Of a stretch of DNA of 64,000 nt, positions 3,788-44,290 are shown piece by piece. Every line of letters starts with the position of its first letter. Position 1 is the stretch's first letter. The DNA is from Verrucomicrobiaceae bacterium (GTDB lineage Bacteria > Verrucomicrobiota > Verrucomicrobiia > Verrucomicrobiales > Verrucomicrobiaceae): contig JAIBCL010000005.1 in the NCBI GenBank assembly GCA_019694165.1, positions 310,001-374,000 of the forward strand, read 5' to 3'. The notes under the pieces are model-generated. The model was not told where the DNA came from and ran no database searches. It saw only the letters and a list, made by a program, of their open reading frames with translations. A program made the position numbers and the translations under genes.

Positions 3788-6392
3788 ACGGTGCGCGGGA
3801 AACGGAAAGGGACACGGTGGAGTGTGGTGGCAGCGAGAGCTTCAAGGTGCCGGTGGCATCGGTCTCCAGGCGGCCCTGCTCGAGATTTTTTTTCACGGCC
3901 ACCATCGTGTGTGGCGGCATTCCGGAGAAGACCACGTCGACGGTGGTCCAGCCGCCGACATTGAAGAGAGTGCCGCGCGCGCTGAGTTCGTGAATCTGGA
4001 TGTCGGCGCTCGATTCGACGAGCCGCAGGTATTCCGGGACGGCGGCCGGTGCGTCGGTCAAGACGAGTTCGGTGAGCATGCGGCCCGTGGTGTGGACGTA
4101 GGTCACATCTCCTTGTGTTTTCCAGCCGGCGATGCCGCGGCAGAGCGGCAGATCAGGCACACCGGCCGATGCGGGGATGCGGAACGTGCGCATCTGACCC
4201 GCGTTGGCCACCAGCCAGTGACGCGGGGCGACCTGATGGAACTTCGTGCGCACCGCATCCCCCGCGATCGCGGCGTATTGGAAGGCCGATACTGGGTGAA
4301 GCGGCTGGGCCGAGCACCATTCGTAGATCTTTTCCAGTGCGAGACGCGACGCCGGCTGCGCGGCCGCGGCAAAATCGTGCTGGAGGAAGACGGGGGCCAG
4401 GCGGAACGGCAGATCCGAGCTTTTGAAACGCTCGATCACATCGCCAAACGCAGCGAACGAGCCGGCAGGTGCGCGCGATGCGCCGTTGGCCGTGGTATCC
4501 GGCTCGCGCGGAAGCGCCTCGACATTGGCGAGGGTGAGGATCGACCGCGCGACATTCTGGCGGCGCTGTTTGTCGAGCGGCCCGTCGCCTTCGGCGGGAG
4601 TTTCGACGTCGGATTCGGCGAGTGAAACGGACACTGGGAGCGGATGCTGCTGCAAGACACGCGAGCGGATCACCTCGGCGCACATGGGATGGCCGGCGCA
4701 CTGCGCCAAAGAGGAAAACCCATCACCGGAGACGTGGCTGTAGAAAAGCCTGCGGCCGTCACGCGTGGTGGTGTCGGGAACCGGGAAGGTGTTTGCCACC
4801 GGCTCCAGCCAGCGGGTGAGAAAGCGGAGTGCATCAGCGAGGACAAGGCGATCATCAGCCGGGCGCGTCAATACGTAGGGATCCAGCCACATGCCACCCC
4901 AGGAACAGAGGAACACGGGATCGAAGCGCACGGCTCGGCCAGCGGCGTCCTCGCCACGAAGCGAGAGGAACACCTGCGCGCCGGCGGGAGCAGCCAGATC
5001 ACGAAATGCTGCGGCGCGCGGCTGCAGGCGGTCGCCTCCCGTCATCATGGCGGCGTCAAGCCGGGTGATGGCGGGGGCTGTGATGCCGCGCACGGTCTCC
5101 ATCGTCCCGCTCAAGGCGAAGGCGGAGGCGAACTCCGCCCGCGCGTCCTCATCCGCGAAAGGCAGGCCGCCGACGAACAGGACGGGCGTGCGCCGCCTCG
5201 CAAGCTGCGCGAGCCAACGGGCGGCGGTCTTTTCCTGATCCGGACGCAGGGCAAGCGTGCCGTCCACGATCACGGCCGCGAAGCGCGGAGGAAGCGCGGC
5301 GGGCAGCGTTTCGCTGCCCGCGTCCAGGTACTCTGGAGCGAACCCCAACCAATTGAGCGTTCGCTGAAGTTGCCGCCCGGTCAGTGTGTCCGCCGGTGAG
5401 GCGGCCGGCTTGTCTGCAAAGTCCGCATCCCAGCCATAGAGCACCAGAACGCGGCGTGGCACCTCGCTCAACGGGGCCAGCGCGGTGCCGTTGAGCTCTG
5501 GCGTGGTTACAAACGGGATGCAGCCGAGTGCCGACAGCTTCTCCGCCGTCTGCCGTGCGAGATCCTTCTGCGTAGGATCGACATAATCAACCGCATAGAC
5601 TTTCAGGTCGCGCATCTGCACCTCACGGATGCGGGCCTCCAGCCACGCACGGTCTTCAGCGGAGACTGCCTTGTAGCTCCGCGTTTTAGGATCGAACGAT
5701 TGGAGCACCGACTCGACGAGCACGCCGTTGATATCAGCGGCGATTTTGTCAATCAGGCCAAAGCCCCGATTGACCACGATCTTGGCCTTGGGGAACTGCC
5801 GGTGTAGATCCTTGATGAGGCCTTCGAGCGCCTTCCGGTACGCGCCGGCTTTCTGCGGCGATTGCTTCACGAGCAGCTCGGCGCTGTCGATGGTGTCGAG
5901 GAAAAAACCGTCAAAGCCCCTGTCGAGCGCCGGCTTGGCCAGACCGTCGATGAACATCGGCTTCCAATCGGGATGAGTGATGTCCAGCAGCCGGGTACCC
6001 CAGTCGGCGTTGGCACCCACAAACGGCACCTTGTTTGCCGCAGCCAGCTTTTCGCATGTCGAACCGGGTCTGGCTTCGACGGTGCTGATGTAGGCCAGGT
6101 ACGTGTGCCCCAGCGTGTGGCCCGGAGCGAGATCAACCTGTGCCTCAGCATCGAGGATGCAGAGATCGAAGGTGGCCAGGTCCTGCGGATCGGGCTTGTG
6201 CGAGTAGTTCACATACAACCGCGTGGTGACAGGCTGGACCGGCTTCGCTCCGGCACCCGACACAGCAACGCCCACAACCAAGATGCCCAACCAGACTGCC
6301 AGCGGCCGCCGGCGAGCATCATAGTCCCGCGAACTTGCCCTCAGCTCGGCCGTAGCGGCCATTTCCACATGTGATCGGTTCTCAAATGCCAT
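3771..6392 (-). CDS. pelA: PelA-like glycoside hydrolase with degenerate deacetylase domain
   Basis: An 873-residue protein with an N-terminal hydrophobic segment (about 31-49), so probably exported. Residues about 55-305 match the PelA hydrolase domain (GH166/endo-alpha-1,4-polygalactosaminidase fold): GFDGFFLDTID gives Asp166 and VLVESV gives Glu227, at the positions of family acidic residues. A Rossmann-like middle part follows (about 313-530), then the PelA deacetylase start (FYSHVSGDGF, 550-559) and the PelA C-terminal block (LALEKIYEWCSAQPLHP, about 684-700). PelA trims and deacetylates the Pel polymer in the periplasm. The first catalytic Asp of the DGD motif is Ser555, and the SHTxSHPF zinc motif expected after NVEA (623-626) is missing with most of the sequence up to the C-terminal block. 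M11 (6362) is an alternative start. First gene of the operon. Confidence 0.78.
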   Translation of the reverse strand: MAFENRSHVEMAATAELRASSRDYDARRRPLAVWLGILVVGVAVSGAGAKPVQPVTTRLYVNYSHKPDPQDLATFDLCILDAEAQVDLAPGHTLGHTYLAYISTVEARPGSTCEKLAAANKVPFVGANADWGTRLLDITHPDWKPMFIDGLAKPALDRGFDGFFLDTIDSAELLVKQSPQKAGAYRKALEGLIKDLHRQFPKAKIVVNRGFGLIDKIAADINGVLVESVLQSFDPKTRSYKAVSAEDRAWLEARIREVQMRDLKVYAVDYVDPTQKDLARQTAEKLSALGCIPFVTTPELNGTALAPLSEVPRRVLVLYGWDADFADKPAASPADTLTGRQLQRTLNWLGFAPEYLDAGSETLPAALPPRFAAVIVDGTLALRPDQEKTAARWLAQLARRRTPVLFVGGLPFADEDARAEFASAFALSGTMETVRGITAPAITRLDAAMMTGGDRLQPRAAAFRDLAAPAGAQVFLSLRGEDAAGRAVRFDPVFLCSWGGMWLDPYVLTRPADDRLVLADALRFLTRWLEPVANTFPVPDTTTRDGRRLFYSHVSGDGFSSLAQCAGHPMCAEVIRSRVLQQHPLPVSVSLAESDVETPAEGDGPLDKQRRQNVARSILTLANVEALPREPDTTANGASRAPAGSFAAFGDVIERFKSSDLPFRLAPVFLQHDFAAAAQPASRLALEKIYEWCSAQPLHPVSAFQYAAIAGDAVRTKFHQVAPRHWLVANAGQMRTFRIPASAGVPDLPLCRGIAGWKTQGDVTYVHTTGRMLTELVLTDAPAAVPEYLRLVESSADIQIHELSARGTLFNVGGWTTVDVVFSGMPPHTMVAVKKNLEQGRLETDATGTLKLSLPPHSTVSLSVSRAPYAVAR

Positions 6393-6446
6393 GGTTTGGT
6401 GCTGCGCTGTCTATCAAAAATGGAAATTTTATCAGAATGGAGTTTC

Positions 6447-6474
6447 ATAGTAGCAAATCCAGAATAGGAAGCAA
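6447..6474 (-). promoter_or_regulatory. Candidate sigma-70-type promoter for the Pel-like operon
   Basis: In the only AT-rich stretch between the DUF1501 gene and pelA, the minus strand reads TTGCTT (6474-6469), a 16-base spacer, then TACTAT (6452-6447). This would place a start of transcription about 45 bases before the pelA ATG. It is a reading by eye; the rest of 6393-6660 shows no gene. Confidence 0.35.
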
Positions 6475-6660
6475 GGTGATAAAAATTAGAATTTGCAACC
6501 CAAGGGCTGGTACCGCCCTCTGCGCCTCTTTCAGGCGTGCCGACAGATCAAGGTCAAGGGGCACGAGTACCGCTCACGCCTCTCCACCAACTCCGCTGAC
6601 GTGCGCAGCAGGGCGGAGGGCTCAGCCGGGCTTCAAATGCGCTGCTGCGATGAGCGGAGC

Positions 6661-8004
6661 TCACACAAGTTCCCTCATCGGCAAGCAGCCGCCGTCCACG
6701 AGGTACTGTGGACGGCCAGTCAGATCGGTCAGCGTCGTCTTCGTCACATCAATGCCGAGTCGGTGGTACAGCGTGGCGAAGACTTCGGCAAAGGCGACGG
6801 GGCGATCAATGGCTTCCCCCCCAAGTTTGTCCGTGGCACCGATCACCTGGCCGTGGCGCATTCCACCGCCGGCGAGCAGCGCACAAGAGACGCGCGGCCA
6901 GTGGTCGCGACCGCCTTGTTTGTTGATCACCGGCGTGCGGCCGAATTCACCCCAGACGACGACAGACACGTCCTTGTCCATGCCCCGCTCGTGCAGGTCG
7001 GTGATCAGCGCGCTCAACCCCCTGTCGAGCAGCGGCAGATCTTCGCGCAGTTGGCCGAAGTTGTTGGAGTGATAGTCCCAGCGGCTGAACGCCAGGGTGA
7101 CCACTCGCGCTCCCGCTTCGACAAGGCGCCGCGCCACCAGGAAATGCTCGGTCAACCGCGGCCCCCCATCGTCGCGGCATTCGGCGATGCCCCTGCCGTA
7201 GAGTTCGACGAGGCGGGGATCCTCCTTGTTGAGATCGAGCGCGTCGAGCAACTTCGAGCTGGTGAGCACGCTCAACGCCTGGGCGTTGAAGACGTCAATG
7301 CCGCCCATGAGTCCGCTCGCATCCACATCACGCCTGAATTGATCGAAGCTGGTCAGCAGAGACTTGCGATCACCGAGCCTTTCAAGCGTCACGCCACTGA
7401 GCGTCATGTCCTGCGTGCCGCCGCCACGGTTGGGCTGAAAGGGTGCATGCGCCACGCCGAGGAAGCCCGGCTCGCCCGTGCGCGCCCACGGCATATGCCC
7501 CATCTTCGGCGCGAGACCTACAAACGAAGGAACCGCCGGATCGACCGCGCCGCTCAGCCGCGACACCACCGACCCCATCGAGGGCCATCCGCCCGGCGGC
7601 TGGCGCTTGGAATTTCGGCCCGTAAGGCACTGAAAGGCATCGTGGCTGCCGTCGCAGTCGGACAAGGACCGGATGAGGGTGCATCGGTCCATCAGTTTCG
7701 CCAGCCTGGGCAGCAGCTCGCAAACCTCGATGCCTGGAACATTTGTGGGGATTGGCCGGAATTCGCCGCGCATCTCGGACGGTGCGCTCATCTTCAAGTC
7801 AAAAATGTCCTGGTGCGACGGGCCGCCGGGCAGGAACACCATGATCACTGCTTTATGTGATCTTCCAGATCCCTGCGCGGTCTCGGCCTGGAGCAGATCG
7901 GCCAGCGACAGCCCGCCCATGGCGAGTCCGCCGATCTTGAGGAAGTTCCTCCGCGATACACGGTCGCAGAAGCCGCCGGCCGGGTTGGAAAGCACCGAAA
8001 GCAT
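6661..8004 (-). CDS. DUF1501 family exported protein (Tat signal)
   Basis: A 447-residue DUF1501 protein, distantly related to the sulfatase/alkaline phosphatase fold. The chosen ATG (8004) puts a twin-arginine signal at the N-terminus ([15 protein letters not shown]). The frame is open 20 codons further upstream, but those residues lie ahead of the Tat motif and look non-coding. Family hallmarks visible are [17 protein letters not shown] near the N-terminus, WGEFGRTP, and GGRDHWPR in the last third. These proteins are abundant in Planctomycetes and Verrucomicrobia, usually next to a DUF1549/DUF1553 cytochrome-like partner. No partner is present here, so it is an orphan copy. Its substrate is unknown. 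It is on the same strand as the Pel-like operon but 268 bases separate them. Confidence 0.85.
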
Positions 8005-8080
8005 CCGCACAGTAAGCCACAGGGGCGCGAATCCTTTCAAGCGCACCGCTCCCCAGCCGCGCAATCTGCGCCCGGCACTC

Positions 8081-8662
8081 TCACCACTTCACTTCCACCT
8101 TCTGCTGGCGGCCATTGCGGTCGAGGTACTTCACATGGCCGTGCTTCGCACCGTATTCGTGGACACAACGGGTGACCTTCACATCGTAGGCGCAGTAACG
8201 CGCGATCTCGGCGACTTTCTCGCGGTGCGTCACGAGATCACCCTTCTGCAGCGCGGCCTGTGCTTCCTGCCACCAGCGGATGGCGTCGAGTCCGTCGCCG
8301 GTTTTTCCACAGCCGAGCGTGGCGGAGGCGACGGCGTCGAGCTTCAGGCGATGCCCGAGCTTTTGCTCGAGGTCGATGAGCAGATCGAGGCTGTGCAGTT
8401 GATCCCGAAAATCGAAGATGCTGTAGCCGAGGAGCACCTCGTAGTCGAAGCCAATGTGATTGAAGCCGACGACGAGGTCGGCGCGCACGAGCTGGCTGAT
8501 GAGATCGCCGTTCTCGTCCTCGGTGAAAACACGATATTCGCCAGTCTTCGTGCTGTAGGTGACCGCAATTGAGATGCCCATCTTGTGCTTGTTTCCCCAA
8601 CCGCCCACGTCGTTGGCGGTGCGCTGCGTTTCGAGATCGAAGTAGACGATGTTTTCTGCCAT
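8081..8662 (-). CDS. DEDDy-type 3'-5' exonuclease domain protein
   Basis: A 193-residue RNase H-fold protein of the DnaQ-like exonuclease superfamily. The three exonuclease motifs are visible: FDLET (Exo I, Asp and Glu) near residue 8-12, [10 protein letters not shown] (Exo II) in the middle, and YCAYD (Exo III, Tyr-x3-Asp, the DEDDy form) near the C-terminus. This predicts two-metal 3'-5' nuclease activity; whether the substrate is DNA or RNA cannot be told. The ATG at 8662 is chosen because the motif-bearing fold begins directly there ([12 protein letters not shown]), while the upstream open frame is basic and low in information. No helicase or polymerase domain is attached. It is divergent from the SGNH hydrolase gene with 103 bases between the starts. 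Confidence 0.75.
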
Positions 8663-8765
8663 GAGTCCGGTGCTCGTGGAGACTGGCATTGATGGCGGGC
8701 GCGGGCAAGGGGCGCGTCCTTTTTTGCATTGCGACGTGCCAGCACCGCGCTCCAATCACCGTCCG

Positions 8766-9422
8766 ATGAAGACCATCCTTTGCTTCGGCGACTCGAACAC
8801 CTGGGGCTACGACGCCGCGGGCACTGCCGCCACCGGCGTGCTACAGCGCCACTCTCCCGACGCACGCTGGCCGGGCGTGCTCGCGCGCGAACTCGGCCCG
8901 GACTTCCGAGTCATCGAAGAAGGACAAAACGGACGCACCACCGTGCATGACGACCCTTTCTCGATCTGCCGCAACGGCAGGAACTACCTGCCCGCCTGTC
9001 TCGAAAGCCACAAGCCACTGGATGTGGTGGTGATGATGCTCGGTACCAATGATCTGAAAACTGTCTTCGCCGCGTCCCCCGCCGAGATCGCGTCGTGCGC
9101 GGCCATGCTGGCAAAGATAATCCTGCAGAGCGACGCCGGCATCGGCTGGCGGCCACCACAGTTGCTCCTCATCTCCCCGCCTGCTGTCGGTGACATGTCG
9201 CGGGCACCAGACATCGCGGAAAAGTTTGCCGACGGAGCCGCAAGATCACGCAGACTGCCGGAACGCTACGCAGCGGTGGCCGCGCAGCTCGGCTGCGACT
9301 TTCTGGATGCACAGCGGGTTGTGACCCCAAGCGGGCACGATGGCATCCATCTCGAAGCGGCCGAACACGAGAAGCTCGGCAAGGCGGTGGCAGATGCCGT
9401 CCGCCGCATGACCTGCGCATGA
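8766..9422 (+). CDS. SGNH/GDSL-type hydrolase (arylesterase-like)
   Basis: A 218-residue SGNH hydrolase without a signal peptide, so probably cytoplasmic. The family blocks are all present: ILCFGDSNTWGYD (block I, nucleophile Ser), a Gly-Arg in block II (GQNGRTT), MMLGTNDLK (block III, Asn) and SGHDGIHL (block V, Asp and His). It resembles the arylesterase/acyl-CoA thioesterase-like branch, in which FGDSNTWG is typical. It would hydrolyse an ester, probably an acyl or acetyl ester; the substrate is unknown. The ATG at 8766 is chosen because the strand carrying the nucleophile starts immediately after it. It stands alone, divergent from the exonuclease gene and convergent with the cytochrome gene. 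Confidence 0.85.
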   Translation: MKTILCFGDSNTWGYDAAGTAATGVLQRHSPDARWPGVLARELGPDFRVIEEGQNGRTTVHDDPFSICRNGRNYLPACLESHKPLDVVVMMLGTNDLKTVFAASPAEIASCAAMLAKIILQSDAGIGWRPPQLLLISPPAVGDMSRAPDIAEKFADGAARSRRLPERYAAVAAQLGCDFLDAQRVVTPSGHDGIHLEAAEHEKLGKAVADAVRRMTCA

Positions 9423-9444
9423 TTCTTTCTCAATCACCGTGCGC

Positions 9445-10785
9445 TCAACGCGCTGCGAGATCCTGTTTCCAACTCGCAGGCGCGTCCTCAAGCGTTTCGG
9501 CCAGGATGTGCTTGATGTTCTTGCGCTCCGAGCCGCCGAGATACGAGTAGCGTCCGCCGGCTTCCTTGTCATCGAGCGCCTTCCACAGCCCGGCCAGCAC
9601 GGTTTGCTTGAGCTGCGGCATCAGGTTCTTGAAGGTGATGGAGTACACCATGTAGCTGCACCGATATTTGAAGAGCCGGTTCAGAAGCTGGAAATCCTTG
9701 AGCGAGCGTCCTTCCTTTGTCTGCGGCGCGCGCTTCGTGAAGGCTTCCTGAAATGCTGCGTCTCCCTCGATGCCGCCCTGCGGAAGCTCGGCCTCGTCCT
9801 TGAAGAGCAGCGCATCCACCACATCCTCGGCACAGTGGTCGATGATACGGCGCGCGGTGCCCGTCGGCTCATTCTCGACCTTCTCGCCCAGTTCGCGCTG
9901 CAGGCTCTGCTGCATGTACATCGCGCGCAGCGATGCGTGATTCGCCTTCGTGAGGATGTTCTGCGTCGAGGTCTGATGCTCCAGCACCATGAGCGCGACG
10001 ATGTCACTCGTCTTCTGTGGATAGGGCTCCGTGTCGAAGAGCTTGTCCAGCGTCTTCATGTTTGCGCCGGCTTCAAAGTTCATCGTCACCTTCTCGCCTT
10101 CCTCTTTGGCCGTGACGTTGCCGCGGTGCAAAGTGCTGCCGTGCCTGCCTGTAACGTACCAGCCGCCCCAGCGGTCGGCGAACGGCGTGGTGGTGTCCAC
10201 CACCGTGCTGCCTTGGCTCATGATCGGATGGCCTTCCGGACCGGGGAAGACGGAGCGCACGATCACACCCGGCACCTCCGGCGAGAACGGCCCGCCGTGG
10301 CAGCTCAGGCACGATTGATCGCGTTGAAAGCGGATGGGCTCGTTCTCGGGGACGTTCGGATCACACAGGTAAAAGATCGGACCGAGCACGGGATCAACCG
10401 TGGAGACCTCGAAGACGCCGCCGACCGAGTAGCCGACGTAAGCGTTGTCGGTGAAATAGATCACGCGTGGCGTGGCGGGGCTGATGCGGTCGTTCTGCTT
10501 GCTCGTCTTCGAGAAGACCATGACCTGGGATTCCTGCGGAATGTTCCAGTGCTTGAGTATGCCGTAAAGCGTGGTCCAAGCGCTGCCGCGCGGGATCTTT
10601 ACCTTTCCGGCCTCCTGGTCCTTCTCCAACTTCTGCGCGGCGTCGTGAGGCGGGGTGTCGGAGTAGCGGATCGGCGCGTTCTCGTATTCGTTCTCTGCAC
10701 GGAGCGTGGCCCAGCCGCCGAGGCAGAGGGCACAGAGGGCGAGCCATGGCGGCAGCGTGCTAACGGGTGGCTGGTTCGGTTTCAT
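9445..10785 (-). CDS. Exported mono-heme c-type cytochrome-like protein
   Basis: A 446-residue protein with a signal peptide (about 12-30, LPPWLALCALCLGGWATLRA) and one heme c attachment site, CLSCHGG (CxxCH), near residue 165. The ATG at 10785 is chosen because it gives the signal peptide. The rest has no domain I recognise; it is rich in charged helices and shows YFTDNAYVGY before the heme site. The gene start lies 26 bases inside the 3' end of the NsrR-like regulator gene, so the two are co-transcribed. This suggests a periplasmic redox role connected to nitric oxide or nitrite exposure, but that is inferred only from the neighbour. No catalytic partner such as a nitrite or NO reductase is adjacent. 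Confidence 0.65.
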   Translation of the reverse strand: MKPNQPPVSTLPPWLALCALCLGGWATLRAENEYENAPIRYSDTPPHDAAQKLEKDQEAGKVKIPRGSAWTTLYGILKHWNIPQESQVMVFSKTSKQNDRISPATPRVIYFTDNAYVGYSVGGVFEVSTVDPVLGPIFYLCDPNVPENEPIRFQRDQSCLSCHGGPFSPEVPGVIVRSVFPGPEGHPIMSQGSTVVDTTTPFADRWGGWYVTGRHGSTLHRGNVTAKEEGEKVTMNFEAGANMKTLDKLFDTEPYPQKTSDIVALMVLEHQTSTQNILTKANHASLRAMYMQQSLQRELGEKVENEPTGTARRIIDHCAEDVVDALLFKDEAELPQGGIEGDAAFQEAFTKRAPQTKEGRSLKDFQLLNRLFKYRCSYMVYSITFKNLMPQLKQTVLAGLWKALDDKEAGGRYSYLGGSERKNIKHILAETLEDAPASWKQDLAAR

Positions 10786-11224
10786 GTCGTGAGGTGAAGA
10801 GGATGCTGTTGAGCCGCTTCCGTTCCGCCCCGCACACGAGGTCGGCCACGGTATGCCGGTCGAGTTCATCGAAGTAGGCCTTCGAGGCGCGCGCCAGCAC
10901 GGTCTTGAGACGGCACGTTCCATTGATCGGGCATGTATTGGTCTTGAGGTCAAAACACTCGACGATGACGGGCGAATTCTCGGTTCGATGCACCAGGAGG
11001 CCCAGCCGGATTTCGTCCGCAGGCATGCCGAGGGCGATGCCGCCGCCGCGCCCTCTCTTGGTCTCCAGATAGCCCAGTTTTGCCAGGAAGTTCACCACCT
11101 TGATAAGGTGATTCCGGGATATCTGATAGCTGTCGGCTATTTCACTCAGTGAAAATGGCCCCCCTTTGAGCGCCGCGAACATCAGCACTCGAAGGGAATA
11201 ATCGGTGAACAGGCTCAAACGCAT
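10760..11224 (-). CDS. nsrR: Rrf2-family transcriptional regulator, NsrR-like
   Basis: A 154-residue Rrf2-family winged-helix protein. The N-terminus (MRLSLFTDYSLRVLMF) and the DNA-reading helix region (YQISRNHLIKVVNFLAKLGY) follow the NsrR pattern, and the wing RGRGGG is present. Cys90, Cys98 and Cys104 (ECFDLKTNTCPINGTC) match the three cysteines that hold the NO-sensitive Fe-S cluster in NsrR; Cys98-Cys104 spacing is as in known NsrR, while the first gap (seven residues) is two or three residues longer than in those I recall. NsrR represses genes for NO and nitrosative stress and is released when NO damages the cluster. The cytochrome gene overlaps its 3' end, so it is the likely target along with autoregulation. 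IscR is a less likely identity, as sufS and sufU lie nearby but on the other strand. Confidence 0.75.
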   Translation of the reverse strand: MRLSLFTDYSLRVLMFAALKGGPFSLSEIADSYQISRNHLIKVVNFLAKLGYLETKRGRGGGIALGMPADEIRLGLLVHRTENSPVIVECFDLKTNTCPINGTCRLKTVLARASKAYFDELDRHTVADLVCGAERKRLNSILFTSRHETEPATR

Positions 11225-16735: not shown

Positions 16736-17521
16736 TCAGTTGTTCTGCCTCTGGCTCTCCGGCCACGGCTCCGCCACCACTTGCAACAGCGCCTTGGCCT
16801 CCAGCGGCCGCAAATCGGGACGCGAGGAGAGAAGCCGCGCGAGCATCCCGGCGGCGCGTGGCGCGGCGAAGCTGCTGCCGGTGGTCTCGATGATGATGCC
16901 GCCTTTCCAGGGCACGCGCACGTTCACCCCATGCGCGGCGAATTCGACCAGCGACACTCCCTGATTCCGGTACAGCCGGTCCTCACGCGGCGCGGCGAGC
17001 ATGTTCACGGTGATGACGGAGGAGAAATGACCGGGCCACTCGAGCCTGCGGAAGTCCAGGTTGTTGCACGCGGCGACGACATGCACACCGGCGAGATAGG
17101 CGCGATCCACCCAGTCCTTGTACATCAGCACCTGCTCCTTGATGCCGGCGCCGATGCTGCAGTTGATGATGTGATAGCCGCGCTCGATCGCCAGCAGCGC
17201 CGCGCGGCAGACCGCGTGGCTCTTTGACAAATTGCGGCCGTCGAGCACGCGGAAGCTGCCGATCCGGGCCTCAGGCGCGGTCTGCAATGCGGACCACGCC
17301 ACCGCCGTGCCGTGGCCGAAGGCATCGCGTCCGCCGCCTTCCTCGATCACCAGACCGTCGTCCTGCTGCACGATGGCGATGTCATCGACGAGCGCCAGCG
17401 CGCCAAAGGACGGATGCGCGGCTTCGACTCCCGAGTCGATGATCGCGATTTTCACGCCGTTGCCGCGACCGTGTTCGAGCGCATCTTTCGCCTGCGCCGG
17501 TGTCATCCACGCGCGGCTCAT
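16736..17521 (-). CDS. Minimal cytoplasmic subtilase (S8 family serine protease)
   Basis: A 261-residue protein made of little more than a subtilisin catalytic domain. The triad is intact: Asp29 (IAIIDSGVE), His70 (FGHGTAV) and Ser217 (TGSSFAAPRAAG), with Asn153 (ACNN) as the oxyanion residue. There is no signal peptide, propeptide or membrane segment, so it should act inside the cell. This is unusual for subtilases and recalls those that cut ribosomal peptides or act with regulatory partners. Its ATG overlaps the stop of the GAF gene (ATGA), indicating translational coupling. The frame is open far upstream, but that region is read by the GAF gene in another frame. A GAF-controlled protease is the most direct inference. 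Confidence 0.85.
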   Translation of the reverse strand: MSRAWMTPAQAKDALEHGRGNGVKIAIIDSGVEAAHPSFGALALVDDIAIVQQDDGLVIEEGGGRDAFGHGTAVAWSALQTAPEARIGSFRVLDGRNLSKSHAVCRAALLAIERGYHIINCSIGAGIKEQVLMYKDWVDRAYLAGVHVVAACNNLDFRRLEWPGHFSSVITVNMLAAPREDRLYRNQGVSLVEFAAHGVNVRVPWKGGIIIETTGSSFAAPRAAGMLARLLSSRPDLRPLEAKALLQVVAEPWPESQRQNN

Positions 17522-39019: not shown

Positions 39020-39051
39020 AACGGCTGCTCCCCTCGCGAGAAGCAGCCGTT
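39020..39051 (-). terminator. Rho-independent terminator behind the orphan cupredoxin-gene tail
   Basis: A perfect 10-base stem, AACGGCTGCT (39020-39029) with AGCAGCCGTT (39042-39051), and a 12-base loop. On the minus strand it is followed by TTTTGTT, as expected for termination of minus-strand transcripts. It sits 25 bases past the stop codon of the orphan gene tail (39076), the position expected for the original terminator of the cupredoxin gene. Confidence 0.78.
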
Positions 39052-39075
39052 CATTGAATCAATCTCAGCGCAGAC

Positions 39076-39202
39076 TCACTTCACCACCGGCGCAGGCACG
39101 ACGTTCGTCGCCGGGTTCGCCTTCAAGTAAGCATCCACATCCTTCGTAACGATCACCTTGCCGCCCATGGTCATGAAGTGGCCGGGGAAGGTGCAGACGA
39201 AT
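39076..39202 (-). pseudogene. Orphan 3' end of a cupredoxin-domain gene (duplicate of 40256-40382)
   Basis: In the minus-strand frame ending with TGA at 39076 this encodes about 41 residues beginning FVCTFPGHFMTMGGKV and ending PAPVVK, the same as the C-terminus of the large protein at 40256-44290 except for four residues. By eye there are 16 base differences, all in the 3' part (39076-39148), and none across the 54 bases 39149-39202. There is no start codon or upstream coding region; the Abi_2 gene adjoins it and ends inside it in another frame. It is the stranded original or a duplicated tail of that gene. Confidence 0.85.
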
Positions 39203-40127
39203 CAGCAATCAATCCCCAGAAAGCCTCATCCTTCCAGTTGGTTGAAAAACCCAGCGCCTTCAGATCTACGAACAGATGCTGCTCCAGCAATCTAGCCAGT
39301 CTCTCATGCCAATGCGATAGCGGCGCGATGCGCAGCATCAGCTCGTGGATGACCACGGCGATCGCATAGAACCGGTCGTTGCTCTTCAGGAAGGATAGAT
39401 GTTTCTTGGCGATGATCGGCTTTATGACCATCTGGCGGTTCCAGACTCGGGCATGATGGGCGCAGAGATTGCGGAGGTAGGTCAAGGCGTGGAGCCAGTT
39501 GCGGAGAATCTGCTCGTCGATGCTGAAGTTGGCGGCGATGGCTTTGCGCTCGGCGGGGAGCTTGAGGTTATCGAAAATCTTCGACCACATGCCCAGCGTC
39601 AGCGTCTCCGAAATCATCCAGATCGGCGGCAGGTAAGGTGACGTGTAGGTGTCGAAGTAGTAATTGATGAAGACCTCGTGATGGCGTCGATGCGGACGCG
39701 TGCCGCCCCGAGGAATGGTGAACTCGGCATCCAAGCGATCGAGCAATTCCGTATGCCGGGGATTGCGAGCCGACGCGTCGAAATGAACGGTATCCATGAA
39801 CCAGTGTGGACCATGCTTCACCGCCATCTCATTGACGATCACGGTGCGAACGGCGACTTCGATACGCTCAATGGCATCCATCGTCAGCAGGCGCAACTCA
39901 CGGTCGAAGCGGTAGAGGTCCAGAATGTTCCGAAAGGTCGTGCCAGATTTGAAGGGCTTCCCCGGCACCGCAGATTGCTGAAGCGGCAGGGCGTAAGCCG
40001 AAAGGCGATAGTAGCCGATGAATCGCAGGTAGTGCTCAGCTTCGGCGTCATCCTCGATCAACAGGCTGCGCGCCTTGAGTTTCGCGATCTGCTCGGGAAT
40101 CGTCAGCGCTGGCTTGGTGAACTTCAT
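39171..40127 (-). CDS. Abi_2-family (AbiD/AbiF-type) abortive infection protein
   Basis: A 318-residue protein of the Abi_2 family (PF07751), which includes AbiD and AbiF phage-resistance proteins of Lactococcus. Family blocks are FTKPALTIPEQIAKLKARSL at the start, HYLRFIGYYRLSAYALPL, LDLYRFDRELRLLTMDAIER and the HEPN-like LRNLCAHHARVWNR (RNxxxH) in the C-terminal half, which suggests RNase activity. ATG 40127 fits the family start; another ATG lies at 40154. The last ten codons and the stop are read from the duplicated cupredoxin tail in another frame, so the original C-terminus was probably altered on insertion. Role in phage defence is inferred from the family. It follows the large cupredoxin gene by 128 bases on the same strand. 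Confidence 0.88.
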   Translation of the reverse strand: MKFTKPALTIPEQIAKLKARSLLIEDDAEAEHYLRFIGYYRLSAYALPLQQSAVPGKPFKSGTTFRNILDLYRFDRELRLLTMDAIERIEVAVRTVIVNEMAVKHGPHWFMDTVHFDASARNPRHTELLDRLDAEFTIPRGGTRPHRRHHEVFINYYFDTYTSPYLPPIWMISETLTLGMWSKIFDNLKLPAERKAIAANFSIDEQILRNWLHALTYLRNLCAHHARVWNRQMVIKPIIAKKHLSFLKSNDRFYAIAVVIHELMLRIAPLSHWHERLARLLEQHLFVDLKALGFSTNWKDEAFWGLIADSSAPSPATS

Positions 40128-40255
40128 CCGTGCGATGCCCTGAAAATAAAGCACCCGCCCTGGTGCGCTTCTTCGAGAGGCGTGGCGGGTATGTTGGGCA
40201 AATAGTCGTAGAGGTAGCTACCTTTGCAACCAATTGTTGACGTATGAAGTTATGA

Positions 40256-43200
40256 TCACTTCACCACCGGCGCGGGCACGCCATTCGTCGCGGGGTGGGA
40301 CTTGAGGTAGCCGTCCACGTCTTTGGTGACGATCACCTTGCCGCCCATGGTCATGAAGTGGCCGGGGAAGGTGCAGACGAATTCGAACTCGCCTTCTTTG
40401 CCGGGGGCTTTGAATTGCAGGCGCTCGGTGTTGCCGGGTTCGAGCATCTTGGTGGCGACATGGATCTTGAAGTTCTTGTCGTCGGGGACGTAGAGGCGGC
40501 CTTGCTTGTCGGGCGTGGGCTGCATGGTCATGGCTTTCATGCCGATGGGCTGGCGCTGGCCGTTGTCCACGATGAGCAGGTTGTGCGGCATCACGTCGTC
40601 GTTCTCGAAGATGATCTCGGTTTGCTTGCCAGCAGCGACAACGATGCGGTTGGTATCGAAGCGGAGCTGCTCGCGCACGGTTTTCACCACGACGACATCG
40701 ACGCTGATCTGGCGCAACTCGGCGCGGACCTTGTCGCCATCAGCGCTGGGCATGAGTGCGGCGAGATCGCGGGCGACCTGCACGGCGCTGACGTAGTCGG
40801 GGCTGGTGCGCTTGTTGGCGGGTTGCTTCTGGCAGTCGGCAAGGATCGCCTTCGTCAAAGCGGCGGCGTCATCGGCTTTCCAGGCGGGTTGCAGACGCGC
40901 GAGCGCGTAGAGCGAGGGCGCGAGGTGCTTGTTCGATTTGATGAAGCCTGCGACGATGCCATACGCGGCGGCGGTGTTGTCGGAGCCGAGGAGCGGCAGC
41001 GTGCGCAGCGCGGTGTCCACATACCTGCCGTTCTTGTTCGTGTCCAAACCAGCGCTGGCGAGCGGGAAGAACTTCGCGCGCAAGGCAGGATCAGGGATGC
41101 TGCCGGCGGCTTCGAGCAAGGCGAGGCGCGTGGCTTCGTCGCCTGCATTCCATGCCTTGGCGGGATCGCCGCTGGCAATGACCTGAGCGCACAAACCGGT
41201 GCGGCGCTGCGTGTTGCCGCTGCTCTTCACAAGCTTGGCGAGCGCGTCCTGTGACTTGTCGAGTTCAGCAGCGGAGGTTTGCAGGATGAGTTTGGAAAGC
41301 TCCTGATTCGCACCGGCCTTGTTGCCGTTCACGCGTTCGAGCGCGGCGGCGAGTTCGGTCACGCGGTTGGTGTGATTGATCTTCGCGAGATCGGTGATGG
41401 CCTTCTCGCGAGCGTCGGGTTTGGTGTCGGCGCGATCAATGATGGCTTGCAGCACGGCGCTGTCGTTGCCGAGCTTGCCAAGGTCGCCGGACTTCACGAA
41501 GGCGAGCAGCCAGGCCTTCGCTTTCGCATCATCGAGCAGCACGAGTTGCTCCGGCTTCGGTGCGATCTGGCGCAGCGTTTCCTTCAAGCAATACTCGAGT
41601 GTGTAATCGAGGTCCTTCTTCGTCGCGCTGAGCGCGGCGGTGATGACTCGCTTGTCGCCCGGCGCGAAGAACGAGCAGGCACGCACGCCTTCGAGACGCA
41701 CGCGCATGTTGTCATCGGCCACGGCTTTCTCGATGATGTCGAGCACGTTCGGCACGCGGTCGCGCTGATACAAGGCGACGCGCACGGCCTGCGCACGAGC
41801 CCGCGGCTCAGGCGAGGCGAAGACGGTGTTGATGAGGTCGGTGTTCACCACGTTGTGCCACTGATGCACCCAGAGTGCTTCGAGGACGTGATGTGCGTCT
41901 TCGACCTTCTTCGGATCGAACTGCTTCACCCACTCCTGAGTGGCGGCGATGACTTCCTTCGTGTCGTGCTTGTCGAGTTCGATCTTCGCGCGCAAGCGCA
42001 CATCGTTCTCCGGCTCCTTCAGCAGATCGAGCAAGGCCTTGATCGGCTGGCCATCGATCTTCTTCACCTCTTGCAGCGGACGACCTTCATACGTCACGCG
42101 ATAGATGCGGCCCGTGGTGTGGTCGCGGTTCGGATCGCGCAAGTGATGCTGCATGTGGCCGATGATCGCGCAGCTCCAGTCGGCGAAGACGAACGCGCCG
42201 TCCGGTGCATTCACGCCATAGATCGGGCGGAAGGTGCCGACCTCAGCGGGATCGCACTCGATGAAGGTGTTGTATTCCTTGTCGCCGTCCTTGCGTGTGA
42301 TGGTCGTGCCTTTGATCGCGCTGCCGTCTTCTTCCATCTTCACGCGATGGATGCCCTGGATGGAGATGACGTTGAAGTTGATGAAGTTGTTGTTCCAGTC
42401 CTCTGGGAAGTGACGGCTGCTGAGGATGAGCGTGTTCGGGCACGGGCGCGACGGACGCTGCCACCACTGCTGGTAATTGCTGTGCGCCACGGTGCCGAAG
42501 TCGCCGCCGTCGATGAAGCTGGAGAAGCCGGGGCCGTAGTAGTTCGCGTTGCCGGTGGCATCGGTGATGAAGTCATTGCCCCAGTAGTCAAAGACGCGAC
42601 CGTGTGGATTCGCGAAGCCGTAAGCGGCATGGCGGATGAATTTGCCCGTGCGCGGCTCATAGCGATAGATCGCACCGTTCGTGTTGCGCACCGGACCCTG
42701 CGGTGTCTCGAGCTGCGTGCGATGGAACACGCCGTCGCTGCAATACACCGCGCCGCCGGGCTCGTAGCACATCGAGTTCGTCTCGTGATGCGAGTCAGCC
42801 GCGCAAAGACCAGTGAGCACGCGCTCGACCACATCCGGCTTGTCGTCGCCATTGGTGTCGCGAATCCAGAGCAAGTCTGGGCTCTTCATCACGAGCACGC
42901 CGTCCTTGTAGAACTGGAAGCCAGTGGGGCAGTTCAGCTTGTCGTAGAAGGTGATGCACTTGTCCGCTTTGCCGTCGTTGTCCGTGTCTTCAAAGATGAG
43001 CAGCTTGTCGCCATCGGTGCTCGTCGGCGTGCGCTCGGGATAGTTCTTCCACGCGCTCACCCACAGGCGGCCCTTCGTGTCGTAGGCCATCTGCACGGGC
43101 TTCACGAGTTCGGGGAACATCTTCTCATCCGCGAAGAGCTGGATCTTCAGCTTCGGATCCTTCTTGATCTTCGGAATGATCGAGTTGCCGTCAGGGAAGG

Positions 43201-44290
43201 CGATGAGGCCCGTCTTCGGATCGACTTGGAAGCCGGTCATCGGCGTCTTGTTGAACGTGTCGCTGCCGACTTGCAGGTTCGATCCCACTTCTTCCACCTT
43301 CGGCAAATTCGAGTCATCCACCTGACCTTCGCCGCCCTTCGCAATCGCCCACACCGCCGCTTCGCGATTCGACGTCATCAAGTCGCGCACGCCCATCTCT
43401 TGCTGCATGACCTGGAAGTTCGACACATACGGCTTCTCCGGCTGCTTGATGTTCTGCTTCATGCCGCCCACGCCCGCCGCATACGCGAGACCCGAGCGCC
43501 CCCCGTAAACGTTGTAGCCGTCCACCGTGCGATAGCGACCATGCCACGCTTCATTGCGCACCACGACCGCTGCGCGCAGCTTCTCGAGCGAGTCGATGTT
43601 CGGCGCATTGTCACCGAACACGCCTTTGAAAAGGATCGGCGCGATCGCCTTGTCGCCTTCCTCGGTGAGGTGAATGCCATTGAACGTCAGCGGCTTCTTC
43701 GCCTCCGCATACGCCGCGAGCGATGGATTGAAGAGGTCCACAAACTGCACGCCGTTCGCCTTTGCTACCTCCGCCATCGCCGCGACGTAGAGTTTCAGGT
43801 TTGCGTTGATCGGCGCGGCATCCGCGATGTCGGGATTGCTCTGTTTCTCCGCGCCAATCGGCGACACGAGCACCACGCGCGGCGCGCCTTTGCCGGAGAA
43901 GTTTGCCTTCGCCATATCCTTCAAGAAGGTGTCGAGCTTCGTCTTGAAATCCGCCAGACCCGCCTCGCCCTTGAACGACTCATTGAAGCCGTAAAACGCG
44001 AGCACGACCGAGGCCTGCACCTTCGTCAGCCATTCATCGCGCGTGCCGAAATCATCCACACGATGCCACGTGCCGACTTCATCACCGGAGAACGCCAAGT
44101 TCCGCATCACGATCTGTTCGCCCGGATTCGCCGCATGAATCAGTGTATCAAACCAACCCGTGTGCTGCATACGATCCGGCGTGGTGCCGCCGAGGATGGC
44201 GATGTGGTCGTTGCTGCTGAGCTTCAGTTGTGCGTGCGCGGCGATGGCCGTGCAGAGAGCCAGGATGAAGGTGATGAGCTTCTGTTTCAT
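40256..44290 (-). CDS. Giant secreted SGNH-like / beta-propeller / HEAT / cupredoxin protein
   Basis: A 1344-residue exported protein (signal peptide about 1-20). Order: SGNH-like domain (about 25-225; FYGFNESF and GIHLTEEGD, but the nucleophile Ser is absent in AILGGTTPDR), beta-propeller of the PVC glucose-dehydrogenase type (about 385-755; FPELVKPVQMAYDTKGRLWV), HEAT-like repeats (about 770-1190), and a C-terminal azurin-like cupredoxin. The copper ligands are intact: His in VMPHNLL, and Cys, His and Met in CTFPGHFMTM. The relatives in PVC bacteria usually end in a CxxCH heme site instead, so this copy uses copper for electron transfer. Likely a periplasmic sugar oxidation system; substrate unknown. 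Its last 127 bases are duplicated at 39076-39202. Confidence 0.88.
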   Translation of the reverse strand: MKQKLITFILALCTAIAAHAQLKLSSNDHIAILGGTTPDRMQHTGWFDTLIHAANPGEQIVMRNLAFSGDEVGTWHRVDDFGTRDEWLTKVQASVVLAFYGFNESFKGEAGLADFKTKLDTFLKDMAKANFSGKGAPRVVLVSPIGAEKQSNPDIADAAPINANLKLYVAAMAEVAKANGVQFVDLFNPSLAAYAEAKKPLTFNGIHLTEEGDKAIAPILFKGVFGDNAPNIDSLEKLRAAVVVRNEAWHGRYRTVDGYNVYGGRSGLAYAAGVGGMKQNIKQPEKPYVSNFQVMQQEMGVRDLMTSNREAAVWAIAKGGEGQVDDSNLPKVEEVGSNLQVGSDTFNKTPMTGFQVDPKTGLIAFPDGNSIIPKIKKDPKLKIQLFADEKMFPELVKPVQMAYDTKGRLWVSAWKNYPERTPTSTDGDKLLIFEDTDNDGKADKCITFYDKLNCPTGFQFYKDGVLVMKSPDLLWIRDTNGDDKPDVVERVLTGLCAADSHHETNSMCYEPGGAVYCSDGVFHRTQLETPQGPVRNTNGAIYRYEPRTGKFIRHAAYGFANPHGRVFDYWGNDFITDATGNANYYGPGFSSFIDGGDFGTVAHSNYQQWWQRPSRPCPNTLILSSRHFPEDWNNNFINFNVISIQGIHRVKMEEDGSAIKGTTITRKDGDKEYNTFIECDPAEVGTFRPIYGVNAPDGAFVFADWSCAIIGHMQHHLRDPNRDHTTGRIYRVTYEGRPLQEVKKIDGQPIKALLDLLKEPENDVRLRAKIELDKHDTKEVIAATQEWVKQFDPKKVEDAHHVLEALWVHQWHNVVNTDLINTVFASPEPRARAQAVRVALYQRDRVPNVLDIIEKAVADDNMRVRLEGVRACSFFAPGDKRVITAALSATKKDLDYTLEYCLKETLRQIAPKPEQLVLLDDAKAKAWLLAFVKSGDLGKLGNDSAVLQAIIDRADTKPDAREKAITDLAKINHTNRVTELAAALERVNGNKAGANQELSKLILQTSAAELDKSQDALAKLVKSSGNTQRRTGLCAQVIASGDPAKAWNAGDEATRLALLEAAGSIPDPALRAKFFPLASAGLDTNKNGRYVDTALRTLPLLGSDNTAAAYGIVAGFIKSNKHLAPSLYALARLQPAWKADDAAALTKAILADCQKQPANKRTSPDYVSAVQVARDLAALMPSADGDKVRAELRQISVDVVVVKTVREQLRFDTNRIVVAAGKQTEIIFENDDVMPHNLLIVDNGQRQPIGMKAMTMQPTPDKQGRLYVPDDKNFKIHVATKMLEPGNTERLQFKAPGKEGEFEFVCTFPGHFMTMGGKVIVTKDVDGYLKSHPATNGVPAPVVK

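Follow-up and report, generated by a model that had tools for sequence, protein, structure and literature searches.

How does a toxin–antitoxin (TA) module come to lie on its own in a bacterial chromosome? Chromosomal TA modules are plainly mobile, yet many have no surrounding mobile element, and the route by which they enter is unsettled. The question is raised by a locus in a 64,000-nucleotide stretch of a Verrucomicrobiaceae genome (assembly GCA_019694165.1, contig JAIBCL010000005.1, positions 310,001 to 374,000; hereafter the window), in which a gene of the Abi_2 family lies between two copies of the 3′ end of a large cupredoxin gene – one copy part of the intact gene, the other an orphan. 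An original prediction held that a defence cassette had entered at the end of this gene and left the gene intact, and this is supported. In our judgement the locus is probably a scar left by homology-anchored import, the cargo being a self-contained AbiF TA module.

The anatomy of the locus (Table 1) is simple. The host gene encodes GDSL lipase-like, DUF7133 and HEAT domains and a C-terminal copper-binding (plastocyanin/azurin) domain (Pfam scan), and its last 127 nucleotides (copy A) recur as copy B beyond a unique insert. The copies are 87% identical and align without gaps, forming the longest direct repeat in the window. Positions 1–54 of the repeat, those next to the junction, are identical and the 16 mismatches all fall at positions 55–109, and thus within the outer 73 bp, a concentration with p = 1.4e-4 were the differences evenly spread. 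Repeat alignment bore out the predicted duplication, and the open reading frame (ORF) list, Pfam and PADLOC the Abi_2 gene in the 1053-base insert. The strong terminator expected behind the orphan is likewise there (folding energy -26.3 kcal/mol, z = -5.0), and a consensus scan found none directly behind copy A. No second copy of the insert occurs elsewhere in its own genome, and in sequence, ORF list and repeat scan the insert has no integrase or recombinase – the latter, too, as predicted – and no terminal inverted repeats.

Table 1. Features of the locus, with positions in the window, followed by three related loci, with positions in the segments named
Feature	Position	Strand	Basis
Hairpin terminator behind orphan copy; putatively the gene's original terminator	39020..39051	-	
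Copy B, orphan cupredoxin 3′ end; putative native tail	39076..39202	-	
Junction of Abi_2 3′ end and orphan copy; putative illegitimate join	39202..39203	not assigned	sequence
Abi_2/AbiD-F toxin ORF	39171..40154	-	ORF list, Pfam, PADLOC
Insert between copies, 1053 bp, unique (spacer, abiF RNA, Abi_2)	39203..40255	-	
abiF RNA (Rfam RF03085), RNA antitoxin of AbiF system	40153..40189	-	Rfam scan
Copy A, 127-bp 3′ end of intact cupredoxin gene	40256..40382	-	
Outer 73 bp of copy A, where it differs from copy B; putative donor-derived tail	40256..40328	-	
Host gene, 1344 aa, intact	40256..44290	-	ORF list, Pfam scan
dnaA 3′ end duplicated around PIN-domain TA module: L420 (G025:C2:337000-349000)	5307-6419		
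DUF6797 gene 3′ end duplicated around DUF433/DUF5615 pair, window's own genome: L409 (G000:C30:227600-239600)	5633-6749		
Two nested inserts behind groEL: L199 (G017:C37:12000-28000)	5289-11143		

Judged by its RNA and protein families, the insert is a complete AbiF module, a known RNA–protein TA system made up of an abiF RNA and an Abi_2 protein with a HEPN motif. The original prediction was right about the Abi_2 gene but took it for the sole cargo: an Rfam scan places an abiF RNA just ahead of the coding sequence (RF03085; 44.9 bits against a gathering score of 37, E = 1.3e-6), just as one is found upstream of Abi_2 in L045, L046, L034, L035, L036 and L044. The protein matches PF07751 (E = 1.1e-54) and PADLOC AbiD (E = 6.8e-71), and its RNLCAH motif, invariant across a four-sequence alignment, fits the HEPN RNase pattern R-(N/H/D)-x3-H. 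The true start is probably the ATG at 40127, not the GTG at 40154, because homologues begin at MKF and the GTG overlaps the abiF RNA. At its other end the gene is without a stop codon of its own and terminates at one supplied by the orphan copy, within which, as predicted, its last ten codons lie: homologues terminate directly after FWNLR or FWNLS, whereas the protein of the window runs on with GLIADSSAPSPATS, ten residues read from the orphan, which places the join at the stop codon of the toxin gene.

From family membership, the toxin is presumably a HEPN RNase, held in check by the RNA, through which the module brings the cell to arrest when phages attack. In the abiF RNA/Abi_2-type pair of Clostridioides difficile the toxin is neutralised by an RNA that binds it directly, and the HEPN motif of the AbiF protein is R-N-x-x-x-H (PMC12373285). 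The window has the same motif and the same order, with an abiF RNA immediately before the gene for an Abi_2/AbiD-F HEPN protein, but it carries one abiF motif where C. difficile has two, and the C-terminus of its toxin is replaced by the ten residues from the orphan gene end. A hairpin resembling a terminator, with a T-rich tail, lies at 40151-40166 and overlaps the abiF RNA at its 3′ end; as has been reported for AbiF of C. difficile, it could stop the antitoxin RNA short of the toxin gene.

Among species-representative genomes the nearest Abi_2 proteins are 61-62% identical and belong to a Spartobacteria metagenome-assembled genome, where the gene sits within an apparent type I restriction locus, and to another metagenome-assembled genome from Verrucomicrobia; with the best matches at this level, no donor was found. 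Nor is there a near-identical Abi_2 on plasmids (best about 40%), on phages (32%) or in viral contigs (41%).

Evidence as to which of the two gene ends is native comes from orthologues of the cupredoxin gene, which in relatives share 50-60% amino acid identity. The orphan tail (KDVDAYLKANP) is nearer than the intact tail (KDVDGYLKSHP) to that of the orthologue in genome G003 (KDVDAYLAANP), and in both G003 and G002 the stop of the gene is followed by a hairpin, without Abi_2. Because of this resemblance, and because the hairpin has been kept behind the orphan, we favour copy B with its hairpin as the native end and regard the outer part of copy A as probably donor-derived, which agrees with the predicted arrival of a divergent replacement 3′ end. 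We put this as a preference because even the nearest orthologues are about 58-60% identical and have no tested downstream neighbours in common with the window. As a separate observation, in G009, G083 and G085 PIN genes are found in the first 2 kb or so beyond the 3′ end of the cupredoxin-gene orthologue; the region downstream of this gene is possibly a hot spot.

The arrangement is by no means confined to the window. The original prediction had proposed a search for other genes or defence genes between duplicated ends of the cupredoxin gene. With other gene ends, the same family yielded seven further cases in which a TA/Abi module separates an intact gene from an orphan copy of its 3′ end – eight with the window – and the gene-end repeats measure about 80 to 390 bp. 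In G011 groEL and its orphan end (268 bp at 98.5%) enclose a PIN-domain toxin with its likely antitoxin; in L381 ParDE lies between the copies and the toxin's stop falls inside the orphan copy, as it does in the window; PIN is enclosed by the end of a P-type ATPase-like gene in L371 and of a purL-like gene in L368, both genes being named by reading the C-terminal sequence and not by domain search. In G025 the dnaA case, L420, is separated from the cupredoxin-gene orthologue upstream of it by about 1 kb, and the repeat of L409 is 175 bp long and 87% identical. The same scar thus stands behind many unrelated genes and around unrelated TA cargo, and the suggested likeness to an element that rebuilds its own specific target gene is not supported.

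Flanking direct repeats are, moreover, enriched around TA loci as a class. A first family survey found them at 11 of 83 TA loci and at none of 64 control loci, and a second set at 5 of 39 TA loci against 3 of 157 controls shifted in position along the same contigs (p = 0.009). Pooled – in a survey that is small, with two control sets that differ in kind and with many genomes that are draft or metagenome-assembled – the counts are 16/122 against 3/221 (p = 1.1e-5; p = 2.6e-5 with one of a sister pair dropped). The survey of contig repeats covered about 1.24 Mb in addition to the TA loci.

How the copies came to differ is recorded in their codons. Across the eight gene-end pairs 80 of 115 differences occupy third codon positions and 77 are synonymous. 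Under decay of the orphan the share at third positions should not exceed about 0.47, and 70% is observed (p = 6e-7). Because the share exceeds the expectation from decay, the copies appear for the most part to have diverged as functioning genes, in two lineages whose alleles recombination would then have brought together.

A further line of evidence stems from G017, which belongs to another genus of the same family and in which no full cupredoxin orthologue was detected. A search with the protein C-terminus found a match there of 62 aa at 89% identity; the DNA (L199 7996-8169) matches copy A at 94% identity, and beyond its stop this orphan end continues into the hairpin of copy B (L199 7938-7997; 82% over 186 bp). 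It stands immediately upstream of an AbiGi gene (PF10899; PADLOC AbiGi), near a DUF5615 gene, in a cluster that sits behind groEL and has the groEL 3′ end duplicated on its far side. In the congeneric G010 groEL, terminator region and glyS are contiguous, and this constitutes an empty site. The inserts in G017 comprise first DUF5615, AbiGi and the orphan cupredoxin end, then a 403-aa ORF with no Pfam match, and each left one copy of the terminator region of groEL. G010 and both displaced copies have in common a block of about 30 bp that is absent from the 3′ flank of the intact G017 groEL, as a donor tail on the intact gene would lead one to expect.

We suggest that such loci arise as follows. 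A donor fragment from a related lineage would have carried its own cupredoxin 3′ end, then the abiF RNA and Abi_2. The two genes would pair, in RecA fashion, at their conserved copper-site codons, and this would join the recipient gene to the donor tail; because it is so joined the recipient gene would be kept whole. The other end of the fragment, at the toxin stop codon, would join the recipient gene slightly upstream of the crossover; this second join would duplicate the 54 bp between the two and leave the recipient 3′ end with its terminator as the orphan. It may have been illegitimate, as in homology-facilitated illegitimate recombination, or a single crossover with a small circle. Import by homology is well supported, and homologous recombination between related genes, the route originally proposed, is likely. 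For the window, so far as its sequence can tell, homology-facilitated illegitimate recombination fits best: an illegitimate second join is favoured because the identical block extends to the edge of the repeat. The genome also encodes ComEC, which permits natural transformation without proving it.

A number of observations weigh against this account. Taken alone, the codon-phase test for the window is weak (11 of the 16 differences at third positions, p = 0.06). Nor is the pattern of crossovers consistent: a uniform polarity, suggested by the window and L381, is broken by L371, which differs on both sides of an identical block, by L420, which differs on the junction side and so has the reverse polarity, and by L409, which differs throughout and has no clear block. 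One homologous and one non-homologous junction would fit the window and L381, and do not simply fit the other three. Some repeat-flanked TA loci involve paralogous genes (L340) or a 5′ end (L385), and several are intergenic or unclassified. For the window no strict empty site or donor locus was found among the genomes available, the orthologues being distant and single-copy and those in the five nearest genomes sharing no tested downstream neighbours, and the toxin, its C-terminus altered by residues from the orphan copy, has a putative function.

The most durable of the other explanations is a variant of the one that we prefer and differs from it in the second join. A small circle bearing the module and a gene end – originating, for example, by recombination between flanking repeats in another host – would integrate in the manner of Campbell by one RecA crossover. 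This accounts for exact direct repeats and an intact gene, and predicts what L371 displays, namely differences flanking the identical block on both sides. Against it, the identical block of the window reaches the edge of the repeat, so that the junction side is without donor-type differences, and no circle has been seen; we hold it to be a possible, if rather unlikely, origin of the locus.

Less probable again is a transposition-like insertion in which 127 bp of host DNA were duplicated and the orphan later decayed. The anatomy is that known for restriction-modification genes of Helicobacter (PMC1643837, PMC3874152, PMC3031569), and the groEL pair of G011, 98.5% identical throughout, is as a fresh duplication would be. 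The mostly synonymous, third-position differences (80/115) nonetheless go beyond the decay of one copy, the 16 differences in the window are all in one block, repeat lengths are variable, and no recombinase or terminal inverted repeats were found. We doubt this explanation.

A tandem paralogue, deleted to its last 127 bp after two gene copies had flanked Abi_2, would suit a gene family with many paralogues per genome and an orphan whose tail still looks coding and is followed by a terminator. The original prediction had singled out one arrangement as telling against insertion, a relative with two full copies in tandem, and none was found: the window's genome has no second close copy, and none of the relatives examined has two. 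A paralogue would not show 54 bp of identity followed by 22% difference over 73, moreover, and the groEL, dnaA and purL-like scars would demand many independent tandem duplications, which makes the explanation highly improbable. Least credible of all is a site-specific element with the 54-bp block as attachment site and an integrase acting in trans, since despite the resemblance to elements that enter tRNA genes at their 3′ ends and restore those ends, the other cases comprise unrelated gene ends and different cargo, so far without a trend to a shared core motif, and the insert has no integrase.

Several observations lie to one side of this argument. An attachment-site element built on Abi_2 was considered and rejected: repeats around Abi_2 loci across bacteria (9/81 against 7/256 shifted controls) are heterogeneous, comprising terminators, tRNA ends and, by eye, an hsdR 5′ end, and so do not belong to one element family. 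In Alloalcanivorax (L118 9688-10980) Abi_2 adjoins hsdR, and an apparent hsdR 5′ end is duplicated at 80%, the mirror of the window. On the window's contig a 90-bp direct repeat (90%) around about 600 bp (G000:C12:16725-17511) marks a candidate insertion and encloses a small ParE-like ORF (17131-17403, plus strand; the name is not from a domain search). In G011, by eye, transposase-like ORFs of the REP (repetitive extragenic palindromic)-associated, IS200-like type stand between direct repeats of 147 and 374 bp (C2:110249-111344 and 277900-280873).

What does homology-anchored import of this kind mean for TA modules at large? It suggests that homologous recombination may carry them from genome to genome, with no need for a dedicated mobile element. 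More tentatively, and with rather more doubt than conviction, we can imagine that the solitary chromosomal TA/Abi modules of this family spread as recombinase-free elements whose homology arms are borrowed gene 3′ ends: each import would restore its target with a donor tail, the orphan end would become the next arm, and gene ends would thereby cross genera, as the cupredoxin end beside AbiGi behind groEL in G017 may exemplify. A readable scar ties TA/Abi modules to gene 3′ ends, through eight cases, codon-level evidence, enrichment and one empty site. The route of entry becomes testable by the footprint of the scar, and orphan gene ends provide a simple detector of recently acquired defence modules.

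In the literature searched, a scope that left out most subscription papers, there is no report of gene-end duplication around TA or AbiF modules; known systems nonetheless offer parallels. As in integration at tRNA 3′ ends by site-specific recombinases, the newcomer restores the gene end and the old end is displaced, but here the insert is without an integrase and the targets are many unrelated protein-coding genes. Homology-facilitated illegitimate recombination has been invoked for the effector–immunity arrays of the type VI secretion system in Vibrio cholerae (PMC5361080) and for small variable segments (PMC2884548). In those arrays, as we propose for our locus, one end is anchored by homology and the other is not, and the orphan 3′ end of the displaced gene lies downstream of the newcomer; there, however, the effector is exchanged and earlier immunity genes persist (PMC5361080), whereas here the host gene remains whole and a TA module is what has been brought in. 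The mechanism that we propose is, for its part, deduced from sequence alone.

Nobusato et al. (2000) reportedly described the insertion of restriction-modification genes with long target duplication. Such insertion is known for restriction-modification genes in Helicobacter pylori (PMC1643837, PMC3874152, PMC3031569), and the likeness is close: small addiction or defence genes lie without mobile-element machinery between long, variable host repeats of the order of 100 bp, and an empty site exists in a relative, here for the sister case of G017 and G010. The window, with its 127-bp repeat, its 1053-bp insert and no mobile-element genes, matches such insertions in these features. It differs in that the cargo comprises AbiF and type II TA modules in Verrucomicrobiota-type genomes, that the repeat is often a host gene 3′ end and that the copies differ synonymously, which points to the import of a donor allele rather than to mere target duplication. 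A scar known for restriction-modification genes is thus seen here for TA and AbiF modules.

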